Source: Pseudomonadota bacterium
GTDB lineage: Bacteria; Pseudomonadota; Gammaproteobacteria; Xanthomonadales; Xanthomonadaceae
Length of the DNA stretch: 59,679 nt
Assembly: GCA_018240435.1 (NCBI GenBank)
Contig: JAFEFT010000024.1
Location: 1 to 59,679 of the forward strand
Reading direction: 5' to 3'
A program made the translations under genes and the position numbers. Of this stretch, positions 2,242 to 59,679 are shown in pieces. The notes under the pieces are model-generated. The model ran no database searches, was not told the DNA's origin, and worked only from the letters and a program-made list of their open reading frames with translations. How positions within the stretch are numbered: position 1 is the stretch's first letter; every line of letters starts with the position of its first letter.

Positions 2242-5046
<2,805 letters not shown>

Positions 5047-5146
5047 GATCAGCCGCCGCCGGCGCGCGGGCACGGCCCGCGCCGCGCAGATGGGGCCTGC
5101 GCGCCATCGCGCCGGGTCGTCGCGGCGAGCGCCGGCATCACCCCAC

Positions 5147-5710
5147 TCACTCCGGCCGCAATTCCGCCAGCAGGAACAAGCGCGCCTTCTGCCAGTCGCG
5201 GCGCACGGTGCGCTCGGAACAACCCAGCAACTCGCCGATCTGGACTTCCGACAACCCGGCGAAGTAACGCAACTCCACCACCTGCGCCAGCCGCTTGTCG
5301 GTCGCGGCCAGTTTCTCCAACGCGTTGTCCAGGTGCAGCATCTCCTCGCCCAGCTCGATGCCGGCGGTGATGTCCTCGGGCAGGTCGGTGACCCGCTGCT
5401 GGTCGCCGCCGCGCTTCTGGCTCAGGCGCTGGCGGGCGTAGTCGACCACCACGCTGCGCATGGCGGTGGCGGCATAGGCGAAAAAATGCGCGCGGTCGGC
5501 GAACTGCGCGTGCTGGTTGCGGATCAGCTTGAAATACGACTCGTGCACCAGCGCCGTGGTGTCGAGCGTGCCGCCACGCTGCCCATGCAGTTGCCGGCGC
5601 GCCATCGCGTGCAATTCGCGATACAGCGCGGCCAGCACGGTGTCGAGCGCCGCGCGGTCGCCGCCGCGCGCCGATTCGAGCAAGGTGGTGATGTCCGCGT
5701 CCGCCGCCAT
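5147..5710 (-). CDS. ECF-type RNA polymerase sigma factor (TIGR02999-like, kinase-associated)
   Basis: This 187-residue sigma-70-family factor has regions 2 and 4 only. Region 2 includes TTALVHESYFKL and YAATAMRSVVVDYAR. Region 4 ends with an HTH (LSEVQIGELLGCSERTVRRDW). The ATG at 5710 has a near-perfect Shine-Dalgarno (AGGAGGGATC), which outweighs the longer open frame upstream to 5926. No anti-sigma factor gene is adjacent. The neighbour is a Ser/Thr kinase, as in the ECF43/kinase pairs (EcfP/PknT of Vibrio), where threonine phosphorylation activates the factor. Thr51/Thr52 in the TTALVHE motif are candidate sites (inference). Confidence 0.88.
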   Translation of the reverse strand: MAADADITTLLESARGGDRAALDTVLAALYRELHAMARRQLHGQRGGTLDTTALVHESYFKLIRNQHAQFADRAHFFAYAATAMRSVVVDYARQRLSQKRGGDQQRVTDLPEDITAGIELGEEMLHLDNALEKLAATDKRLAQVVELRYFAGLSEVQIGELLGCSERTVRRDWQKARLFLLAELRPE

Positions 5711-5729
5711 GATCCCTCCTGAGAAGGCG

Positions 5730-5735
5730 ACTATA
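5730..5735 (-). promoter_or_regulatory. Candidate -10 element for the ECF sigma gene
   Basis: On the minus strand TATAGT sits about 20 bp upstream of the sigma factor ATG, with the AGGAGG ribosome site between. No convincing -35 is visible in the GC-rich DNA upstream. It may be housekeeping or autoregulated. Confidence 0.35.
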
Positions 5736-5940
5736 CCGCCCCGGAGCCACCGCTTCCCGTCTGCCGTGGCAAGCGCAAGCCGACGCGACTGCGATCCGTG
5801 ATGCGAGCTGACGCTGGCACTCGGCGCATCGCCCCTGCGCAAGCGCGATCCCGGTGCGTTCGGGCGACGAGGCGGCGCCGCCGAAGGCAAGTCGCCGCCC
5901 ACGCCATCGTACCCATCTGTCCTCATCCCTCCGAATCAGT

Positions 5941-5946
5941 GATAAT
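5941..5946 (+). promoter_or_regulatory. Candidate -10 element for the cytochrome c gene
   Basis: GATAAT, preceded by GT, stands out in GC-rich DNA about 70 bp upstream of the cytochrome c ATG at 6016. It matches the sigma-70 -10 consensus in five of six bases. The -35 region is poor. Confidence 0.4.
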
Positions 5947-6015
5947 CCGCGCTTGCTGCGCCCCTGCAGGGGCCTCCGGGCAGGGCGGCGGCATCGAAAT
6001 CGACGGGAGTCCTGG

Positions 6016-6807
6016 ATGAGTCTGAAGCGCACCTTGGGCGTCGCCGCCCTGCTTGCCGCCACCGCCGCACTGGCACAATCGCCCACCGGTACGCCGGCGA
6101 CGACCTCGGCCCTGCCGGCCGCGCCGGCACCCGCGCCAGTGGCGCTGGCCGATGCCCACGCCACCGGACACCCCGGCGACGCCCAGGCCGGGCAGGCCAA
6201 GGCCGGCGTCTGCGCCGCCTGCCACGCCATCGACGGCAACTCGACCGACCCGCAGTATCCCAAGCTCGCCGCCCAGCAAGAGCGCTACATCGCCCGCCAG
6301 CTGGCCATGTTCAAGGATGGCGAACGCGACAATCCGATCATGCTGCCAATGGCCAGCGCGCTGTCGCCGCAGGACATGCGCGACATCGGTGCGTATTTCG
6401 CCAGCCAGAAGGTGCTGCCGGGGGTGGCCGACGACACCGTCATCAAGAGCGGCCCCAACGCCGGCAAGAAGTTCTACATGGTCGGCCAGCAGCTCTATCG
6501 CGGTGGCGATGCGGCGCGCGGCATCCCGGCCTGCATGGCCTGCCACGGCCCGACCGGCGCCGGCAATCCCGGCCCGGCCTATCCCACCATCGGCGGCCAG
6601 CACGCCAAGTACGTCGCCGCCCGGCTGACGGCGTTCCATGGCGGGCTGGTGCTGGGCAAGGGCGATTGGGCCAAGCCGGAGATGGCACAGGTCGCCAAGG
6701 GTCTGACCGACGAGGAAATCCAGGCGCTGGCGACCTATGTCGAGGGTCTGCATCCGGCTGCCGACGATGCCGGCAGCAAGGCCGGCAAGACCGCGGCGGC
6801 GCATTGA
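6016..6807 (+). CDS. Diheme cytochrome c (cytochrome c4 type)
   Basis: This exported 263-residue protein has a signal peptide (MSLKRTLGVAALLAATAALAQ) and an Ala/Pro-rich linker. It has two class I cytochrome domains, each with a heme site: CAACH in the first half and CMACH in the second. Conserved PMA and YPTIGGQHAKYV segments fit cytochrome c4, a periplasmic electron donor to terminal oxidases. The start at 6016 places the signal peptide at the N-terminus; the open frame upstream is uninformative. It is followed by two DsbA-like genes on the same strand, an order familiar from Xanthomonadales. Confidence 0.9.
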   Translation: MSLKRTLGVAALLAATAALAQSPTGTPATTSALPAAPAPAPVALADAHATGHPGDAQAGQAKAGVCAACHAIDGNSTDPQYPKLAAQQERYIARQLAMFKDGERDNPIMLPMASALSPQDMRDIGAYFASQKVLPGVADDTVIKSGPNAGKKFYMVGQQLYRGGDAARGIPACMACHGPTGAGNPGPAYPTIGGQHAKYVAARLTAFHGGLVLGKGDWAKPEMAQVAKGLTDEEIQALATYVEGLHPAADDAGSKAGKTAAAH

Positions 6808-6914: not shown

Positions 6915-7742
6915 ATGACCATCCGCCGCACCCTGGCGCGTACCGCCCTATTGGCCTCGGCGTTGCTGCTGGCCGCCTGCAATTCCGGCAACGACACGAC
7001 CGGCAATGGCGCCGCCTCGGCATCGCCGTCGACCGCCAGCCCGACAGCCGCATCGTCGGCGACGCCCGCCGACGCCAGCACGGGCGCCGCCACCAGCACC
7101 ACGACGGATACCGCCGATGCCAGCCGCCCGCCGCCGCCGGTCGGCTTTCCGCCCGGCCCGACCCCGCAGGAAGGCAAGGACTACGCCCTGATCGACACCC
7201 CCGACCTGCCCACCGGCGACAAGGTGCAGGTCACCGAGGTATTCGGCTACGGCTGCCCGCATTGCAACGCGCTGCAGCCGCACCTGGCGGCGTGGGAGAA
7301 GAAACTGCCCACCGACGTGCAGTTCAATTACATGCCGGCCGCCTTCGGGCCGGGCCCGGCGCATTGCTGGGATGAGTTCGCGCGTGGTTTCTACGCCATG
7401 CAGGCGATGGGCGTGCCGCTCGCGAAGTTCCACGATGGCGTCTACAAGGCGGTCTGGGCCGGCGCCGGCTTCACCGGCGATTGCAGCATCGTGCCCAAGG
7501 CCTTCGCCAGCTTCGGCGTCGACCCGCAGGCATTCAGCGCGACCGCGCAAAGCTTCGCCGTCACCGCCAAGGTCGGGCAGGCGCACGATCAGATCCTGCG
7601 CTGGGGCATCGATTCGACGCCGACGGTGATCGTCGATGGCAAGTACCGCGTGCTCGAACAGGTCGACAGCGGCCCGGACGGCATGCTGCACACCATCGAC
7701 TGGCTGATTGCCAAACAGCGGCCGTTGCACGGCAAACACTGA
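6915..7742 (+). CDS. DsbA-family thiol:disulfide oxidoreductase, predicted lipoprotein
   Basis: This 275-residue protein starts with a lipoprotein signal (LLASALLLAACNS, lipobox LLAAC). A low-complexity Ala/Ser/Thr linker follows. The DsbA thioredoxin domain carries the redox motif GYGCPHC and the cis-Pro segment SFGVD...DSTPTVIVDGKYR. It probably introduces disulfides while anchored to an envelope membrane. The next gene is a paralogue without lipobox and with CPIC in place of CPHC. The CPHC motif matches classical oxidising DsbA. The two are probably co-transcribed with the cytochrome gene. Confidence 0.87.
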   Translation: MTIRRTLARTALLASALLLAACNSGNDTTGNGAASASPSTASPTAASSATPADASTGAATSTTTDTADASRPPPPVGFPPGPTPQEGKDYALIDTPDLPTGDKVQVTEVFGYGCPHCNALQPHLAAWEKKLPTDVQFNYMPAAFGPGPAHCWDEFARGFYAMQAMGVPLAKFHDGVYKAVWAGAGFTGDCSIVPKAFASFGVDPQAFSATAQSFAVTAKVGQAHDQILRWGIDSTPTVIVDGKYRVLEQVDSGPDGMLHTIDWLIAKQRPLHGKH

Positions 7743-7804
7743 CGCCCATGGCCGGCTGACGCCCAGCGGTGCCAGCCCGTCCGGCCCGATTCGACGGAGG
7801 CTGC

Positions 7805-8479
7805 ATGACTTCCCATCGCTCCACCGCATGGATCGCTGCACTGGTGCTGGCGATGCTGGCGGCGCTGCTGCTCGCCGCGCCACCGGCCGATGCCGCCACC
7901 GCCCCGGTCGAAGGCACCGACTACTTCCTGATCGACAACCCGGCGCCCGTCCGCGGGGCCAAGGTCGAGGTGGTCGAGGTGTTCGGCTACGGCTGCCCGA
8001 TCTGCGCCCGCTTCCAGCCATTCCTCGACGCCTGGGAAAAGAAACTGCCGCGCGACGTCGATTTCTCCTACCTGCCGGCGGCCTTCGGCCCCGACCCCGA
8101 TCACTGCTGGGACGATTTCGCACGCGCCTACTACGCCGCCCGCACGATGGGCCTGAAGGGCAACATCCACGATCGCATCTACAAGGCCAAGTTCGAACAA
8201 GGCCGGATCGAAACCTGCGACGCCATCCCGGCCGTCTTTGCCGATTTTGGCGCCGATCCCGGGGATTTCGCTTCCACCATGCGCAGTTTCCCGGTTACCG
8301 CCGCGGTCAGCCGCGCCCACGACCAAGCACTGCGCTGGGGCGTCGACGGCACGCCGTCGATCGTCGTCGATGGCAAGTACCGCGCCGGCATGACTCGCAG
8401 CGGCGGCCCGGAAGGCCTGCTGCGCACGGTCGACTGGCTGATCGCCAAGCAACGCCCGTTGCACCGCGGCAAGCGTTGA
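7805..8479 (+). CDS. dsbA: DsbA-family thiol:disulfide oxidoreductase, soluble periplasmic
   Basis: This 224-residue paralogue of the preceding gene has a cleavable signal peptide ending near ADA. The redox motif is GYGCPIC and the cis-Pro loop is GTPSIVVDGKYR. The start at 7805 follows a clear ribosome site (CGGAGG about 6 bp upstream). The CPIC dipeptide differs from the CPHC of the upstream copy, so redox potential and substrates may differ (inference). Tandem DsbA genes beside cytochrome c4 are typical of this bacterial group. Confidence 0.87.
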   Translation: MTSHRSTAWIAALVLAMLAALLLAAPPADAATAPVEGTDYFLIDNPAPVRGAKVEVVEVFGYGCPICARFQPFLDAWEKKLPRDVDFSYLPAAFGPDPDHCWDDFARAYYAARTMGLKGNIHDRIYKAKFEQGRIETCDAIPAVFADFGADPGDFASTMRSFPVTAAVSRAHDQALRWGVDGTPSIVVDGKYRAGMTRSGGPEGLLRTVDWLIAKQRPLHRGKR

Positions 8480-8522
8480 AGCCGCGATGCGCGACATCGT
8501 TGCCGGCGCGAGGCGGTTGACG

Positions 8523-9320
8523 ATGCCCGGCCAGCGCCTGCGCCTGCTCAGCTGCAACATCCAGGCCGGGTCGAGCACCCAGCGCTACCGCGACTACGTC
8601 GCGCGCAGCTGGTCGCATGTGCTGCCGGCCGGCAAGCGCGACAACATCGCCGCCATCGCCCACCTGTGCAGCGAGTTCGACATCGTCGGCTTGAATGAAA
8701 GCGACGCCGGCAGCCTGCGCTCGGGCTTCACCAACCAGACCCACCGCATCGCCGAGCTGGCCGGGATGCCCTACTGGAGCCACCAGCCCAATCGCCGCGT
8801 CGGCCGCATCGCGCACAGCGCCAACGGCCTGCTCAGCCGCCACCAGCCCGTCGAAGTGCTCGATTACGCCTTGCCAGGGCGGGTCGGTGGTCGTGGCGCG
8901 TTGATCGCCCATTTCGATCACGCCGGGCAGCGGCTGACCATCGCCATCGCCCACCTGTCGCTGGGCGTGCGCTCGCGGCAGTTGCAGATCGACTACCTCG
9001 CCGAACTGCTCGCCGAGGCGCAGCACGTCGTATTGATGGGCGATTTCAACTGCGGCCCGGAAGCGCCGGAGATGCAGCGCCTGTATCGCAACACCCGCCT
9101 GTGCCCGCCATCGAGTTTCGTCGCCACCTTTCCAAGCTGGAAGCCGATGCGCGCACTCGACCACATCCTGTGCAGCGCCGACCTGCTCGCCGACCCGCCG
9201 CGCGTCCATCCCGCCGGCCGCTCGGATCACCTCGGCATTGCGCTGGATATTTCGATACCGAGGCGGGAAGAGGCTGGCGCGCCCGAGCCGAAAGGAGGTG
9301 CGCGTGGCATTGACCAATAA
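8523..9320 (+). CDS. Endonuclease/exonuclease/phosphatase (EEP) family hydrolase
   Basis: This 265-residue metal-dependent phosphodiesterase-fold enzyme shows the EEP signatures: LLSCNIQAG at the N-terminus, IVGLNESDAGS (metal-binding Glu), VLMGDFNC, ALDHILCS and RSDHLGI (catalytic His). The substrate is unknown. No signal peptide is seen, so it is probably cytoplasmic. The ATG at 8523 is preferred to 8487 because the family begins directly with (R)LRLLSCN and a GAGGCGG element precedes it. The last 17 bases overlap the start of the Fic gene, so the two are likely translated together. Confidence 0.82.
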   Translation: MPGQRLRLLSCNIQAGSSTQRYRDYVARSWSHVLPAGKRDNIAAIAHLCSEFDIVGLNESDAGSLRSGFTNQTHRIAELAGMPYWSHQPNRRVGRIAHSANGLLSRHQPVEVLDYALPGRVGGRGALIAHFDHAGQRLTIAIAHLSLGVRSRQLQIDYLAELLAEAQHVVLMGDFNCGPEAPEMQRLYRNTRLCPPSSFVATFPSWKPMRALDHILCSADLLADPPRVHPAGRSDHLGIALDISIPRREEAGAPEPKGGARGIDQ

Positions 9321-9909
9321 GCTCGGCATCACCGATCAGGTTGCGTTGGCGAGGGCGGAAGAAAAGCTCAGCAAGCAGAAGGCCAAGCAGCTGCATGACT
9401 CGGGGGATATCGCCCGGATGGAAGTCGGTACCTTCGCCGGATTGGCCGATATCCACGGCTATCTGTTCGGCGATGTTTACGACTTTGCCGGCAAGGTCCG
9501 CGAGGTGAACATCGCCAAGGGCGGGTTCCGCTTTGCGCCGTTGATGTATCTCGAGCAGGCCTTGCGCCATGTCGATGCGATGCCGCAAGGCAGCTTCGAT
9601 GAAATCATCGAAAAATACGTGGAGATGAACATCGCCCATCCCTTCCGGGAGGGCAATGGGCGTGCCGTGCGCATCTGGCTGGATCTGATGCTGAAAAAGC
9701 AGATCCGGCAGGTCATCGACTGGAACCGCGTCGACAAGGAGGAATACCTGTCGGCCATGCAGCGCAGCGTGGTGAAGGATGTCGAAATCAAGGCCCTGCT
9801 CGGGGGCGCACTCACCGACCGCATCGACGATCGCGCCGTGTTCATGACCGGCATCGATGTCAGCTACCACTACGAAGGCTATGGCAAGTTCAGAACCGAA
9901 GAGCTGTAG
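9304..9909 (+). CDS. Small Fic-domain protein, class III type (AMP transferase)
   Basis: This 201-residue Fic protein probably transfers AMP or another nucleotide monophosphate to a hydroxyl side chain. The active-site motif HPFREGNGR is at 112-120. A C-terminal inhibitory motif (S/T)xxxE(G/N) is present as SYHYEG at 187-192, which defines class III Fic proteins held in check in cis (as in Neisseria NmFic). The GTG at 9304 is chosen because an AAAGGAGGTG ribosome site precedes it. It overlaps the upstream EEP gene by 17 bp. No FicA-like antitoxin is next to it. Target unknown. Confidence 0.88.
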   Translation: MALTNKLGITDQVALARAEEKLSKQKAKQLHDSGDIARMEVGTFAGLADIHGYLFGDVYDFAGKVREVNIAKGGFRFAPLMYLEQALRHVDAMPQGSFDEIIEKYVEMNIAHPFREGNGRAVRIWLDLMLKKQIRQVIDWNRVDKEEYLSAMQRSVVKDVEIKALLGGALTDRIDDRAVFMTGIDVSYHYEGYGKFRTEEL

Positions 9910-10038
9910 CGCCAGGCGGCTTCATGAAATGCATGTGCTGCTTTGCCTGCCGGCATTCGCATGGCGATGCCTGCGTCGATCGCGCAGCCATCGCCGAACG
10001 TAGACCCCCGCTCGGTCCGCACGGCGATGCGGCAAGCC

Positions 10039-11412
10039 TCACTGCCGGAAAAACGGCGGCGCGCTCAGCCCTTGCGCCTGCATGCGGGCGGTGATGGCGG
10101 GCGCCTCGTCGGCGCGCAGCGGGCCGATGTGGACGCGCCACATCGACTGCGTGCCGATCTGCACCGGGATCAGTTGCACGCGCTCGATGCCGGCCTGTTG
10201 CAGGCGCTGCACCATGCGCTGCGCGTTGGCCTGATCGCCGAAGCTGCCCACTTGCAGGAAGCCGATCGTCGCCGGGTCGATGCTCGCCGCGGCCGCAGTC
10301 GGTGGCATTGCGGCGGCGTTTGCCGGGATCGCCATGGGCGATGGCGAGGCCGCCGGTGATGGCGAATTCGCGGCGACCGCGGGCGTCGATGTCGTCAGCG
10401 CCGCGGTCGACGATGTCGACGCCGTGGCAGCGCTCGGCGGGGTCGTCACCAGCGGCCCACGCGCCGCGTCGACGCGCACGCTGGAGGTCGCAATGCCTGA
10501 TGCCGCGGCTTGCGCTGGCGTCGGTGCGGTGACGGCCGGCATCGTTGACGATGTCGTCGCGACGGGCGGCGTGACGGCGTTCGCCGGTGGCGGCGGCAGC
10601 GGCTTGTCGGCGAAGGCGGCGATAGCGTCGGGATACGCGGGCTTCGGCGCCGGCGTCGCGGCGATCGCCGGCGTGGCCGCTTTCATCGCCGCGGACTTGC
10701 TGGCGACAGCGTTCGCCGATGGCGCAACGGTGCGCGGCGGCGATGTGCGCGCGGTGTTCGTCGCATCCGCCGGTAACGGCATTCCGGTGTCGATGCCGCG
10801 CACTTCCACCCGCGCGGTGCCGTGCACGTTGACGCCGAGCTTGATCGCGGCGGCGTAGGACAGATCGATCAGGCGGCCATCGTGGAATGGGCCGCGATCG
10901 TTGATGCGCACGATCACGCTGCGCCCGTTTTCGAGGTTGGTCACGCGCGCATAGCTGGGCAGCGGCAGGGTGCGGTGGGCGGCGGAAAACTGCGCCAGGT
11001 CGTAGGGTTCCAGGCTCGAGGTGACGCGACCGTCGAACTTGGTGCCGTACCACGAGGCGATGCCGACTTCGTCGTAGCCCGCCGCGCTGGGCAGCACGGT
11101 GTAGCTCTTGCCGAGCACGGTGTAGGGCGAGCGGTTGCCGTAGCGCGCGAGCGGTTCGGGATGCGGCACCGGCTCGGGCAGTTTTTCGACATCCGGCGGC
11201 ACCGCCGGCGCGCCATCGGCCACGCCCGGCGCGTACAGGCCACCGGGCGTATACGGCCCGAGCGGGCGCCAGGGCTTCTTCGCGGCCTTGCCGGTCGCCG
11301 CTGGCGGCGATGGCTTTGGCTTTTCACCGGCGCAGCCGACCAGCCACAGCGCCGCCAGTGTCAGCGCGGCCGCACGCAACGCCCGGCCCGGCTGAAGAAC
11401 GCCTGCGCTCAT
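10039..11412 (-). CDS. rlpA: RlpA-family septal lytic transglycosylase, lipoprotein with SPOR domain
   Basis: This 457-residue outer-membrane lipoprotein (lipobox LVGC near residue 26) cleaves glycan strands of peptidoglycan lacking stem peptides. The double-psi beta-barrel RlpA domain spans about 110-205, with GIASWYGTKFDGR and RINDRGPFHDGR containing the catalytic Asp. A long Ala/Thr/Pro-rich linker follows. The C-terminal SPOR domain (about 377-455) targets septal glycan. Its start overlaps the stop of mltB by 4 bp (ATGA), so the two wall hydrolases form one operon with translational coupling. Confidence 0.92.
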   Translation of the reverse strand: MSAGVLQPGRALRAAALTLAALWLVGCAGEKPKPSPPAATGKAAKKPWRPLGPYTPGGLYAPGVADGAPAVPPDVEKLPEPVPHPEPLARYGNRSPYTVLGKSYTVLPSAAGYDEVGIASWYGTKFDGRVTSSLEPYDLAQFSAAHRTLPLPSYARVTNLENGRSVIVRINDRGPFHDGRLIDLSYAAAIKLGVNVHGTARVEVRGIDTGMPLPADATNTARTSPPRTVAPSANAVASKSAAMKAATPAIAATPAPKPAYPDAIAAFADKPLPPPPANAVTPPVATTSSTMPAVTAPTPAQAAASGIATSSVRVDAARGPLVTTPPSAATASTSSTAALTTSTPAVAANSPSPAASPSPMAIPANAAAMPPTAAAASIDPATIGFLQVGSFGDQANAQRMVQRLQQAGIERVQLIPVQIGTQSMWRVHIGPLRADEAPAITARMQAQGLSAPPFFRQ

Positions 11413-29152: not shown

Positions 29153-30244
29153 TCACTCCGCAACCACGGCGTCGGACGCCTCGGCACGCGTCAGCAGATC
29201 GTACAGCGCCCGGTTGACGTAGTAGTTGCTGCGGCCGATCTTGCGCTTGTCGAGGAATCCGCCGGCCACGAGTTCGTCCAGGTACTTGGTCGCGGTGATG
29301 CGTGACACCTTCAGGTCGCGCTGGACGAACTCGATCTTGGTGTAGGGATGGCTGAACAGGTTGTTGATCAGGTCCTGGCTGTAGAACCGGAAGCCGGCAC
29401 GGATCCTCTGCTTGGTGTCCATCAGCAGGGTGCGGATCGCCTGGATGGTGGCGATCGTCTCGCGCGCGGTGTGCTCGACGGCGGTCAGCATGTAGATCAC
29501 CCACTCCTCCCAGGCATCGTGTTCGCGCACGGACTGCAGCAGGCGGTAATAGTCCGGCTTGGTGCGGACGATGTGCCGGCTCAGGTAGAGCGCCGGGATG
29601 TCGAGCAGTCGTTCCTTGACGAGGTAGAGGACGTTGATGATGCGCCCGGTTCGCCCGTTGCCATCGTAGAACGGATGGATGCTCTCGAACTGGTGATGAA
29701 TCAGCGCCATCCGGATCAGCGGGTCGGCATCGAACGGCGGCTCGTCGTGGATGAAGCGCTCCAGGTCGGCCATCAGGGCCGCCACCTGGGTCGCGTCCTG
29801 CGGCGGGGCGTAGACGGTCTGTCCGGCGCCATCACGAAGCACCGTGCCCGGCAGCTTGCGTAATCCGGCCTGGTTGCACTCGAGCTCGGACTGGATGTCG
29901 AGGATGGTATTGAGCGTCAGCAGGCCGTGTGCACGGACGCGCTCGAAGCCGGCGCGCAGCGCCTGCCGGTAGCGCAGCACTTCCTTGGTCGCGACGCTGA
30001 TACCGGCTTCGCCCGCATCGTCTTCGCGGTAAAGCTCGTCATGCGTCGTGACGATGTTCTCGATCGCCGAACTGTCCTTGGCTTCCTGCAAGGACAGTGT
30101 GTTGATCAGGATCCCCTGGTTGGGGATCGAGGCTGCGACACCTTTGAGTTCGGCGAGGTTGCGGCCAGCCGCTCCGAGCCGCTTCAGGATCGGGGTGGTC
30201 TCAAATCGCCGGGGGTCGAGCGTGGACAGCGATCGGAGCGGCAT
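29153..30244 (-). CDS. Fic-domain protein, class II, with C-terminal winged helix (SoFic-like)
   Basis: This 363-residue protein is predicted to AMPylate and de-AMPylate protein hydroxyls. The inhibitory motif (S/T)xxxE(G/N) lies before the Fic core (SSAIEN at 58-63), which makes it class II. The Fic motif HPFYDGNGRTGR is at 190-201. A C-terminal winged helix-turn-helix (about 300-350, KVSRITATKYLDELVAGGFL) suggests DNA or self-regulation. It sits between oleA and oleB with its own AT-rich control region, so it looks inserted into the ole locus. Target unknown. Confidence 0.9.
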   Translation of the reverse strand: MPLRSLSTLDPRRFETTPILKRLGAAGRNLAELKGVAASIPNQGILINTLSLQEAKDSSAIENIVTTHDELYREDDAGEAGISVATKEVLRYRQALRAGFERVRAHGLLTLNTILDIQSELECNQAGLRKLPGTVLRDGAGQTVYAPPQDATQVAALMADLERFIHDEPPFDADPLIRMALIHHQFESIHPFYDGNGRTGRIINVLYLVKERLLDIPALYLSRHIVRTKPDYYRLLQSVREHDAWEEWVIYMLTAVEHTARETIATIQAIRTLLMDTKQRIRAGFRFYSQDLINNLFSHPYTKIEFVQRDLKVSRITATKYLDELVAGGFLDKRKIGRSNYYVNRALYDLLTRAEASDAVVAE

Positions 30245-59534: not shown

Positions 59535-59679
59535 CGCGCCAATGAGGCGGCCATGTAGCCGCGGAAATGCCGGTTGGACTGGCTCGCTTCAATGAGGCCG
59601 CGGCAAATTTGCCGCGGAATACGTCAGAAAAAAAATCACGGTCAAGTTGTACGCCGTCGCTTCAATGAGGCCGCGGCAA
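59535..59679 (-). CRISPR. Edge of a CRISPR array (two matching repeats plus one degenerate repeat), continuing past the window
   Basis: TCGCTTCAATGAGGCCGCGG with the next bases CAA occurs at 59584-59606 and at 59657-59679, a 73-bp period. The full repeat is about 37 bp (59586-59622) and the spacer about 36 bp. The repeat contains a perfect 20-bp self-complementary block (59598-59617). A degenerate unit at 59535-59568 has CAATGAGG and GCCGCGGAAA but a changed left arm. Its gap to the next repeat is only about 15 bp. Read on the minus strand the repeat ends in CATTGAAGC, the usual 3' handle form, so transcription probably runs leftwards and the degenerate unit is the trailer end. The spacer is AT-richer than the host. 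Type unknown; no cas gene is in the window. Confidence 0.8.

Follow-up and report, generated by a model that had tools for sequence, protein, structure and literature searches.

A Fic domain fused to Cas3 in type I-G CRISPR-Cas loci, with a putative antitoxin encoded in a second reading frame

The window, i.e., the whole stretch of 59,679 nucleotides that was analysed, corresponds to C16:1-59679, C16 being a contig of a 3.18-Mb draft genome. Its right edge holds the end of a CRISPR array, which continues on the contig beyond the window:

~59540-59568, minus strand: degenerate CRISPR unit at the trailer end, recognised by identity to the intact repeat and adjoining the last intact repeat
59586-59622, minus strand: intact 37-nt type I-G repeat, minus strand GTATTCCGCGGCAAATTTGCCGCGGCCTCATTGAAGC (repeat search, folding, comparison with other type I-G loci)
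59623-59658, minus strand: spacer, 44% GC, no significant phage match (GC count and phage search)
59659-59679, minus strand: next repeat, first 21 nt (plus strand), cut by the window edge and the N gap
C16:59680-61364, minus strand: remainder of the array, including 57 N at 59680-59736

The sequence-only reading of this DNA had described two like repeats with a period of 73 bp, a degenerate third unit, and a perfect 20-bp palindrome inside the repeat. We found all three: the repeats start at 59586 and 59659, the degenerate unit (~59535-59566) shares 82% identity over 17 nt and 80% over 20 nt with the intact repeat, and the palindrome is CCGCGGCAAATTTGCCGCGG. The handle proposed for the minus strand was correct as well, and reads ATTGAAGC. 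Folding of the minus-strand repeat RNA predicts an 8-bp stem with a 4-nt loop (-15.7 kcal/mol, z -2.9), and three of 200 shuffled sequences folded equally well. Calling the only whole spacer AT-rich was fair, with 44% GC at 59623-59658 against 47-76% in the intact spacers to the right.

The window stops at 59679 because a run of 57 N occupies C16:59680-59736. The end of a repeat, CGGCAAATTTGCCGCGGAATAC, lies directly beyond this gap, and the copy at the window edge is unreadable to its end. When the contig is extended to the right, the array resumes behind the gap and continues with a spacing of 70-77 bp, save one interruption, to C16:61364. The first 21 nt of the repeat gave 22 matches in the 3.18-Mb genome (at most two mismatches), all on one strand and all within C16:59586-61348, whereas the same 21 nt written backwards gave none, so the pattern is not due to chance. 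The full 37-nt repeat occurs in 21 perfect copies. Because the cas operon sits to the right, the array reads from right to left with its leader side beside cas2, which agrees with the earlier placement of the trailer end at the left and of the leader side and cas genes at the right.

The same reading had called the array uncharacterised, a description that does not survive comparison with other type I-G loci, which share the form of the repeat. Arrays were detected in 26 of the 90 stretches scanned in this comparison (L063 and L073 among them being one contig, and L011 the studied genome). Their repeats carry CCTCATTGAA(GC) after a GC palindrome in 16 of the 26 cases, a close variant in three and a differing sequence in three; four were cut before that end by the exact-match consensus. 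The array and its repeat are ordinary for type I-G.

Some other properties of the array are worth recording. Spacers 2 and 4 are identical, as are spacers 7 and 9, with one unit between the copies in each case. One spacer contains a MITE-like element of about 137 bp (C16:59762-59898) with inverted repeats of the ATTCCC type, and a hand count of match rows gave 16 more near-full copies genome-wide. Searched against phages, the array gave three records with a best E-value of 0.5. Against plasmids it gave 31 records at E <= 1; among these, the Azospirillum and Neisseria rows match where the array carries its insert, and one row extends over most of the array. The end of the window had no match among plasmids.

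The sequence-only reading had also suggested looking for cas genes within 20 kb, and a type I-G (formerly I-U) operon is indeed present to the right:

C16:61574-61864, minus strand: cas2g (PADLOC Cas2g, 1.3e-28)
C16:61886-64075, minus strand: cas4g/cas1g ORF (NF049935 over cut-off, family match from aa 176)
C16:63732-64412, plus strand: PIN-like ORF of a VapBC-like pair
C16:63805-64047, plus strand: 80-aa antitoxin-like ORF of the same pair
C16:64598-66778, minus strand: csb2 (over cut-off)
C16:66775-67977, minus strand: csb1 (over cut-off)
C16:67974-68936, minus strand: csb3 (TIGR04106)
C16:68852-72475, minus strand: Fic-Cas3g, one open frame of 1207 aa
C16:~71692-72253, minus strand: Fic domain in the fusion
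C16:72220-72420, minus strand: nested ORF in the +1 frame, candidate antitoxin
C16:73024-73539, minus strand: N-terminal scrap of a csx17-type cas3 (171 aa), upstream of the fusion

The operon to the right of the array thus comprises cas2g, a cas4g/cas1g fusion, csb2, csb1, csb3 and cas3g. Csb1, Csb2 and the Cas4/1 fusion were identified with the families TIGR02570, TIGR02165 and NF049935. Csb3 scored slightly below the cut-off of TIGR04106 (114.1 bits against 125, E 8.8e-33) and matched the PADLOC Cas8g model at 2.3e-33. Cas3g passed the cut-off of TIGR02621 (618.6 bits against 400), and cas2g, in its correct frame, was assessed by PADLOC only, with a model that has no cut-off. By these family matches the locus is a type I-G CRISPR-Cas system. 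A new CRISPR subtype was considered and ruled out, as the cas genes match type I-G and the repeat has the I-G form. The VapBC-like pair, named from its sequence, is embedded in the operon between cas4/1 and csb2 and runs antiparallel to the cas genes.

The right-hand neighbourhood had been singled out as the best place to look for something new. This proved sound, but by way of a fusion of Fic to Cas3 and of an ORF nested within it. The 1207-aa frame matches the Fic family PF02661 at aa 115-213 (39.8 bits, cut-off 24) and cas3_GSU0051 at aa 265-1199 (618.6 bits, cut-off 400), i.e., Fic sits at the N-terminus of Cas3g. Its probable start is the ATG at C16:72436, with GGAGGA in front. No ATG occurs between Fic and Cas3 ahead of aa 278; AGGAGG precedes a TTG at aa 272 by 11 nt, so that Cas3g may be translated separately from inside the ORF. 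The Cas3 family match begins at aa 265, ahead of this TTG. Among 60 related genomes, eight have a cas3g over the cut-off, and only the stretch of the studied genome has a Fic match. One genome of the same genus (G001) has an antitoxin match near cas3 and no Fic in that stretch; this match (67 bits, in a 112-aa frame) lies on the minus strand beside the start of cas3. The N-terminal arrangement on Cas3g is thus a single case, from a draft assembly.

The Fic fold is present, with PF02661 over its gathering score, and the motif in the studied protein, HPFEDFNGRATR, departs from the strict signature HxFx(D/E)GNGRxxR. The first glycine of the canonical GNG is replaced by Phe and the remaining residues of the signature are retained. 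This is the rule among the relatives described below: HPFxDFNGRxxR was found in 85 of 91 rows, an HPV variant in two, DLNGR in one, and no match in three. Because Phe takes the place of the first glycine, the chemistry may be AMP transfer or another. The domain likely catalyses some transfer reaction of the Fic kind, and we do not claim AMP transfer. The nearest named families are mobile mystery protein B (TIGR02613) and the PADLOC candidate PDC-S04. The former is a close Fic family, but the studied protein (25.5 bits) and the Fic of locus L073 (41.7 bits) lie far under its cut-off of 124.4 bits; the studied protein matches PDC-S04 with an E-value of 1.1e-13. The Fic of L073 matched 87 plasmid records, the best 25 of which are annotated as Fic family, cell filamentation or mobile mystery protein B, and a single, unannotated phage record. 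Elsewhere in the window there are two Fic genes with canonical motifs, at 9238-9909 (plus strand, HPFREGNGRAVR) and 29153-30244 (minus strand, HPFYDGNGRTGR).

We searched for relatives with a contig scan based on a Fic alignment, which gave 102 matches; the best 80 of these were kept and correspond to 79 loci, in which L063 and L073, L064 and L093, L065 and L092, and L071 and L074 are pairwise the same contig and are double-counted in the locus, motif and identity tallies. Judged by HMMs made for this study, Cas3 and Fic share one frame, with Fic at the C-terminus of Cas3, in 29 of the 79 loci, and csx17 is in the same stretch in 28 of these. The fused loci include those of the isolates Thiocapsa roseopersicina DSM 217, T. 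marina 5811 and Geminisphaera TAV2. In ten other loci Fic has a frame of its own and cas genes lie nearby (L074, one of the ten, is cut by the contig end), and in two loci Fic is fused to type IIG restriction-modification proteins with Eco57I and TaqI_C domains. No cas genes were found in 22 loci with at least 4 kb on both sides, nor in 16 more that lie nearer a contig end. Since 38 of the 79 loci have no cas genes in the stretch, the antitoxin-Fic module is not tied to CRISPR.

A separate search of 369 genomes of the class for Fic together with the start of Cas3 returned 22 genomes with a match, several of them with both in one frame in the reverse order. Fic ahead of Cas3 was rejected as the general order, the fused Cas3b loci having a C-terminal Fic. 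Fic behind Cas3 and ahead of csx17 is a recurrent arrangement, seen in Pseudomonadota, Verrucomicrobiota, Acidobacteriota and Thermodesulfobacteriota. Two contigs (L093, which is also L064, and L084) encode Cas3, Fic and Csx17 in a single frame of 1885 or 1838 aa, and in L137 and L149 cas3, antitoxin-Fic and csx17 are separate neighbours, an arrangement that looks like an intermediate. The csx17 family was found in two of 398 genomes of the phylum sample, too few for a rate.

The presence of Fic varies among close Cas3 proteins. The class sample has 15 Cas3b-like genes, five with a full or nearly full Fic, two with a truncated one and eight with none in the stretch; the assignment of one of the sample's genomes (G178) was a near tie, at 577 against 456 bits. 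On a 38-row Cas3b tree the Fic label requires seven changes, where of two loci with a truncated Fic L068 was labelled as having it and G353 as lacking it. The Cas3a and Cas3b labels come from HMMs built for this study, and the Cas3a HMM absorbed Cas3b members (39 sequences). It mislabelled the cas3 scraps of the studied genome and of G030, which BLAST places with the csx17-type Cas3. The structure alignment of Cas3b comprised 24 Cas3b rows.

Other contexts of the module were seen among the relatives. Two Nitrospirae MAG type IIG proteins (L132, 1-2480, and L135, 6329-10582) have the same C-terminal Fic with a nested antitoxin in the +1 frame. A Verrucomicrobia locus (L122) has two antitoxin-Fic modules (5009-6076 and 7007-10588), one in Cas3b and one just upstream. 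The neighbours of stand-alone Fic copies were scanned for 67 of 125 ORFs, the longer ones chosen by hand: three of the 67 match DISARM DrmD, three DrmA, and two to three type I methyltransferase models, and many housekeeping families are among the matches listed (25 of 63 Pfam families).

The region between the HD and Fic domains of the fused proteins, referred to as the linker, is unusually conserved (..PQHGLRGGAGG..). The conservation is explained by the other frame, because the +1 frame of the linker encodes a small protein of about 60-70 aa with the form MxWxxxIxxWRxLPPEE..IPRxVAxSMAFEGEPV. In the studied genome this small ORF lies upstream of Fic, as in class I antitoxins, and its SMAFEG agrees with the Fic-inhibitory signature (S/T)xxxE(G/N). 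The signature is strict in 53 of the 86 antitoxin motifs tallied; in the others the glutamate is followed by R, Q, S, K or E. An HMM of the antitoxin matched all 35 Cas3b-Fic rows (32 distinct contigs), with the match in the +1 frame and either overlapping Fic or immediately before it. It matched likewise in both Cas3a-labelled rows, which are the studied genome and a weakly Cas3-like frame of L122, and in 48 of 54 other rows. A Hydrocarboniphaga locus (L110) has antitoxin and Fic in the same frame. Five rows had no detected antitoxin: three at contig edges, the second one of L136 (a weak, unrelated hit), and L142, which has a Fic core. Across 28 aligned antitoxins, taken from 76 reference sequences, W10, P27, V30, S33, M34, E37, E39 and V41 are invariant. 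Four antitoxins searched against Pfam and NCBIfam matched no family at E <= 1, and the antitoxin profile searched against solved structures returned one unrelated chain only (E 0.088). GGAG stands upstream of many of the nested starts, where it falls in conserved Cas3 codons.

The pattern of substitutions indicates which frame is constrained. Within the overlap of fused genes, differences by codon position of the +1 frame are.197/.177/.373 (67 pairs), and in the Fic part differences by codon position of the Cas3/Fic frame are.187/.129/.445 (56 pairs), i.e., the third position is the highest in each. Over 559 pairs, amino acid identity in the overlap reaches 55% when the +1 frame is translated, while the Cas3 frame and the third frame each give 35%. 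Because of this pattern we regard the antitoxin as the constrained product and the linker as its shadow. The linker is disordered in the AlphaFold model (pLDDT 24-31). The possibility that it is a conserved domain in its own right was rejected, since its identity in the Cas3 frame equals that of the control frame and the model is disordered.

The Cas3 frame nevertheless stays open through the antitoxin gene. When codons were redrawn synonymously with the codon usage of each locus and the antitoxin protein was kept, 7.6 of 32 fused copies were expected to be open and all 32 are, in a group that was itself selected by being open and whose rows are related (L063, L064, L065 and L071 were left out). 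Stand-alone copies exceed expectation too, with 29 of 46 open against 6.1, and the module itself therefore accounts for part of the constraint on the frame. Many Verrucomicrobia stand-alone copies read Fic from about the antitoxin's own start. Stops in the frame were found in none of the 35 fused copies and in 18 of the 48 others, a difference that is partly one of composition.

Two other lines of evidence bear on the small protein. In the structural model of the single-frame Hydrocarboniphaga protein (L110), the motif glutamate, E56, coincides with position 234 of FICD, 274 of C. elegans Fic-1 and 73 of SoFic by the offset of range starts; the range for the C. difficile Fic (4x2d), whose title names E35, gives another offset, 28, and the model is of low confidence over the antitoxin (pLDDT 51-62 for residues 31-60). 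By the offset of the aligned ranges, the model places the motif glutamate at the inhibitory glutamates of FICD, Fic-1 and SoFic. In Rhodococcus, a separately annotated 63-aa protein upstream of a Fic gene, which was not among the sequences used to build the antitoxin HMM, matched this HMM at 1.2e-17 in a search of a 16.5-kb stretch. This stand-alone, non-overlapping antitoxin-Fic pair (L152, 7737-8588) is carried by the Rhodococcus plasmid pRaL13f, a conjugative plasmid, in a restriction/helicase island.

The antitoxin is kept beside a truncated Fic in four loci (G353, G324, G266 and G113), and one locus (L142) has Fic with no antitoxin detected, an imbalance such as a toxin-antidote pair would be expected to show. 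The codon-position, frame-openness and model evidence together mark the nested ORF as an antitoxin, and we think it probable, jointly with the guarding role proposed below, that its product neutralises Fic.

How the studied locus acquired its order is suggested by what lies upstream of the fusion. The 171-aa cas3 scrap found there shares 57% identity over 126 aa with the Cas3 of L073, against 38% over 63 aa with the genome's own Cas3g, and 548 bp contain the remnant of a SNF2-like helicase, named from its motif. The studied linker and antitoxin are homologous to those of the C-terminal Cas3-Fic fusions. Another cas3 stands beside truncated cas3-fic remains in G324 (with csb3), G266 and G113, and G030 has kept a csx17-type cas3 scrap (72% to L088) and no Fic. 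The simplest account of these gene remains is a replacement of the effector set. A compact antitoxin-Fic cartridge would have been fused behind the HD domain of Cas3 in a csx17-type I-G system, with Cas3 read through the antitoxin gene into Fic. Downstream of cas3-fic, a csb3-type effector set would then have taken the place of the csx17-type one. Most of the original cas3 would have disappeared, and the remaining antitoxin-Fic piece would have joined the reading frame of the incoming Cas3g at its N-terminus.

We propose that the fusion is a tethered Fic toxin held by a co-encoded antitoxin, acting as a guard of the immune locus. The genes, the fusions, the nested ORF and its pattern of selection are observed, as is the position of the motif glutamate in a model; that Fic is toxic and is neutralised, what it modifies, what triggers it and that it guards the locus are inferred, and we consider this reading a probable one. 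The antitoxin would have an internal start of its own within the shared mRNA, and its SMAFEG helix would enter the active site of Fic and keep the toxin tethered to Cas3 silent. Its supply might fail when the cas operon is lost or shut off, e.g., by a phage, or the antitoxin might be displaced when Cas3 engages target DNA. The freed Fic would then modify an essential protein and the cell would stop. Such an arrangement would make the immune locus hard to lose and add a dead-man's switch to it.

The same module could also be a selfish toxin-antitoxin passenger of defence loci, in an otherwise ordinary type I-G locus where the fusion to Cas3 is neutral and has no immune role. This would fit the 38 of 79 relatives without cas genes in the stretch, the patchy distribution of Fic on the Cas3b tree with its seven changes, the four loci that lost the toxin and retained the rest, and the many housekeeping families among those listed for 67 proteins that neighbour stand-alone copies. 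It sits less well with the Cas3 frame being open in 32 of 32 fused copies against 7.6 expected, although the excess among stand-alone copies (29 of 46 against 6.1) weakens the argument, and with the recurrence of one site, at the Cas3 C-terminus before csx17, in four phyla. Fic was in addition fused independently to two type IIG restriction enzymes, which points to selection for fusion to DNA-cutting defence proteins. On balance we find a neutral passenger doubtful. Those type IIG fusions can be read in yet another way, as both they and Cas3 engage DNA: Fic might be an effector arm of interference that Cas3 delivers to invader DNA, where it would modify gyrase or topoisomerase, phage proteins or Cas3 itself, the antitoxin-like helix setting a threshold. 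Known Fic toxins do modify GyrB or topoisomerase IV, according to the accessible text of PMC13327609 and PMC7479194. Yet eight of the 15 Cas3b-like genes of the class sample are without Fic, and the available parts of the papers on the type I-G system of Thioalkalivibrio sulfidiphilus (PMC9638904, PMC10482374) describe a helicase and an HD domain with no word of Fic, which leaves this reading quite improbable.

For the studied ORF itself there is the further question of whether it is a dead relic of the locus replacement, or whether Fic and Cas3g arise as two products of the one frame. Remnants of a csx17-type cas3 and a SNF2-like helicase lie upstream, the arrangement is known from a single genome (one of eight cas3g with a Fic match, among 60 related genomes), and the TTG at aa 272 follows AGGAGG. 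Against this, the Fic motif, the antitoxin, and the Cas3 helicase and HD domains are all matched within one open frame of 1207 aa with GGAGGA before its ATG, the Cas3 family match starts at aa 265, before the TTG, and the four other loci with a replaced or reduced Fic have kept a truncated Fic only. We therefore judge a relic, or separate products, unlikely.

The guarded, tethered toxin may be an instance of something more general. A mobile antitoxin-Fic cartridge might weld itself to the C-terminus of DNA-cutting defence enzymes, both Cas3g and type IIG, as a general dual-coded dead-man's switch. The same DNA would yield a disordered linker when read in the host frame and the antitoxin when read in the other, and toxin, antidote and weapon would be inseparable by simple recombination, since the host frame passes through the antitoxin gene. 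We put this extension forward tentatively, as a conceivable rather than a probable one.

If the proposed reading is true, a CRISPR nuclease carries its own toxin with the antidote hidden in another frame of the same gene, and adaptive immunity is joined in one polypeptide to programmed dormancy or death. It would account for part of the type I-G Cas3 proteins being about 200 aa longer than the family model, and it would add an antitoxin family that annotation can miss because of the overlap with a larger gene. The Thiocapsa isolates would provide a testable model of the protection of a defence system against being lost or shut off. For genome editing with type I-G systems, a Cas3 with Fic would be unsuitable without the nested antitoxin.

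In its cas genes the studied locus resembles the type I-G system of T. sulfidiphilus, for which the accessible text of PMC9638904 and PMC10482374 describes a Cas3g with a C-terminal HD domain, Csb1/Cas7 and Csb2; the studied locus has in addition the Cas4/1 fusion, Cas2, and a repeat with a GC palindrome ending in ATTGAAGC. The T. sulfidiphilus system uses Csx17 as Cas8g, whereas the studied genome has Csb3 (Cas8g2) and a Fic domain fused to Cas3; the string "fic" has no occurrence in the text of either paper. Fic genes in cas loci have already been reported: the available portion of PMC3936711 lists ten Fic/DOC genes in type I cas loci, eight of them with a slightly different motif, mentions that the Fic gene of Geobacter sulfurreducens adjoins an antitoxin gene, and notes a RhuM domain with some Fic genes. 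Those genes are separate, and neither a fusion to Cas3 nor a nested antitoxin is mentioned in that portion. Within the open-access literature we found no report of a Cas3-Fic fusion or of its nested antitoxin, for which an earlier description elsewhere is possible, and no nested or out-of-frame antitoxin as judged by titles and the beginnings of abstracts. The accessible text of a 2025 review on the coupling of toxin-antitoxin and CRISPR systems (PMC12737573) does not contain the word Fic.

Among toxin-antitoxin systems, the closest are the class I Fic pairs, e.g., VbhT/VbhA (PMC3667792), for which the inhibitory signature (S/T)xxxE(G/N) is given, and EcFicT/EcFicA (PMC5033356). As far as the accessible parts of these papers go, the studied module shares with them the Fic fold, a small upstream inhibitor with an (S/T)xxxE(G/N) helix, and the order of antitoxin before toxin. 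It differs in having DFNGR instead of DGNGR and an antitoxin nested out of frame in a fusion with Cas3 or a restriction enzyme. A functional counterpart is CreTA, which according to the available text of PMC9458426 and PMC10097628 has an RNA as its toxin, kept repressed by Cascade under the direction of a crRNA-like guide. Both it and the system proposed here would make cells depend on their own CRISPR-Cas by means of a toxin; that of CreTA is an RNA, whereas the candidate toxin of the studied locus is a protein domain of Cas3.
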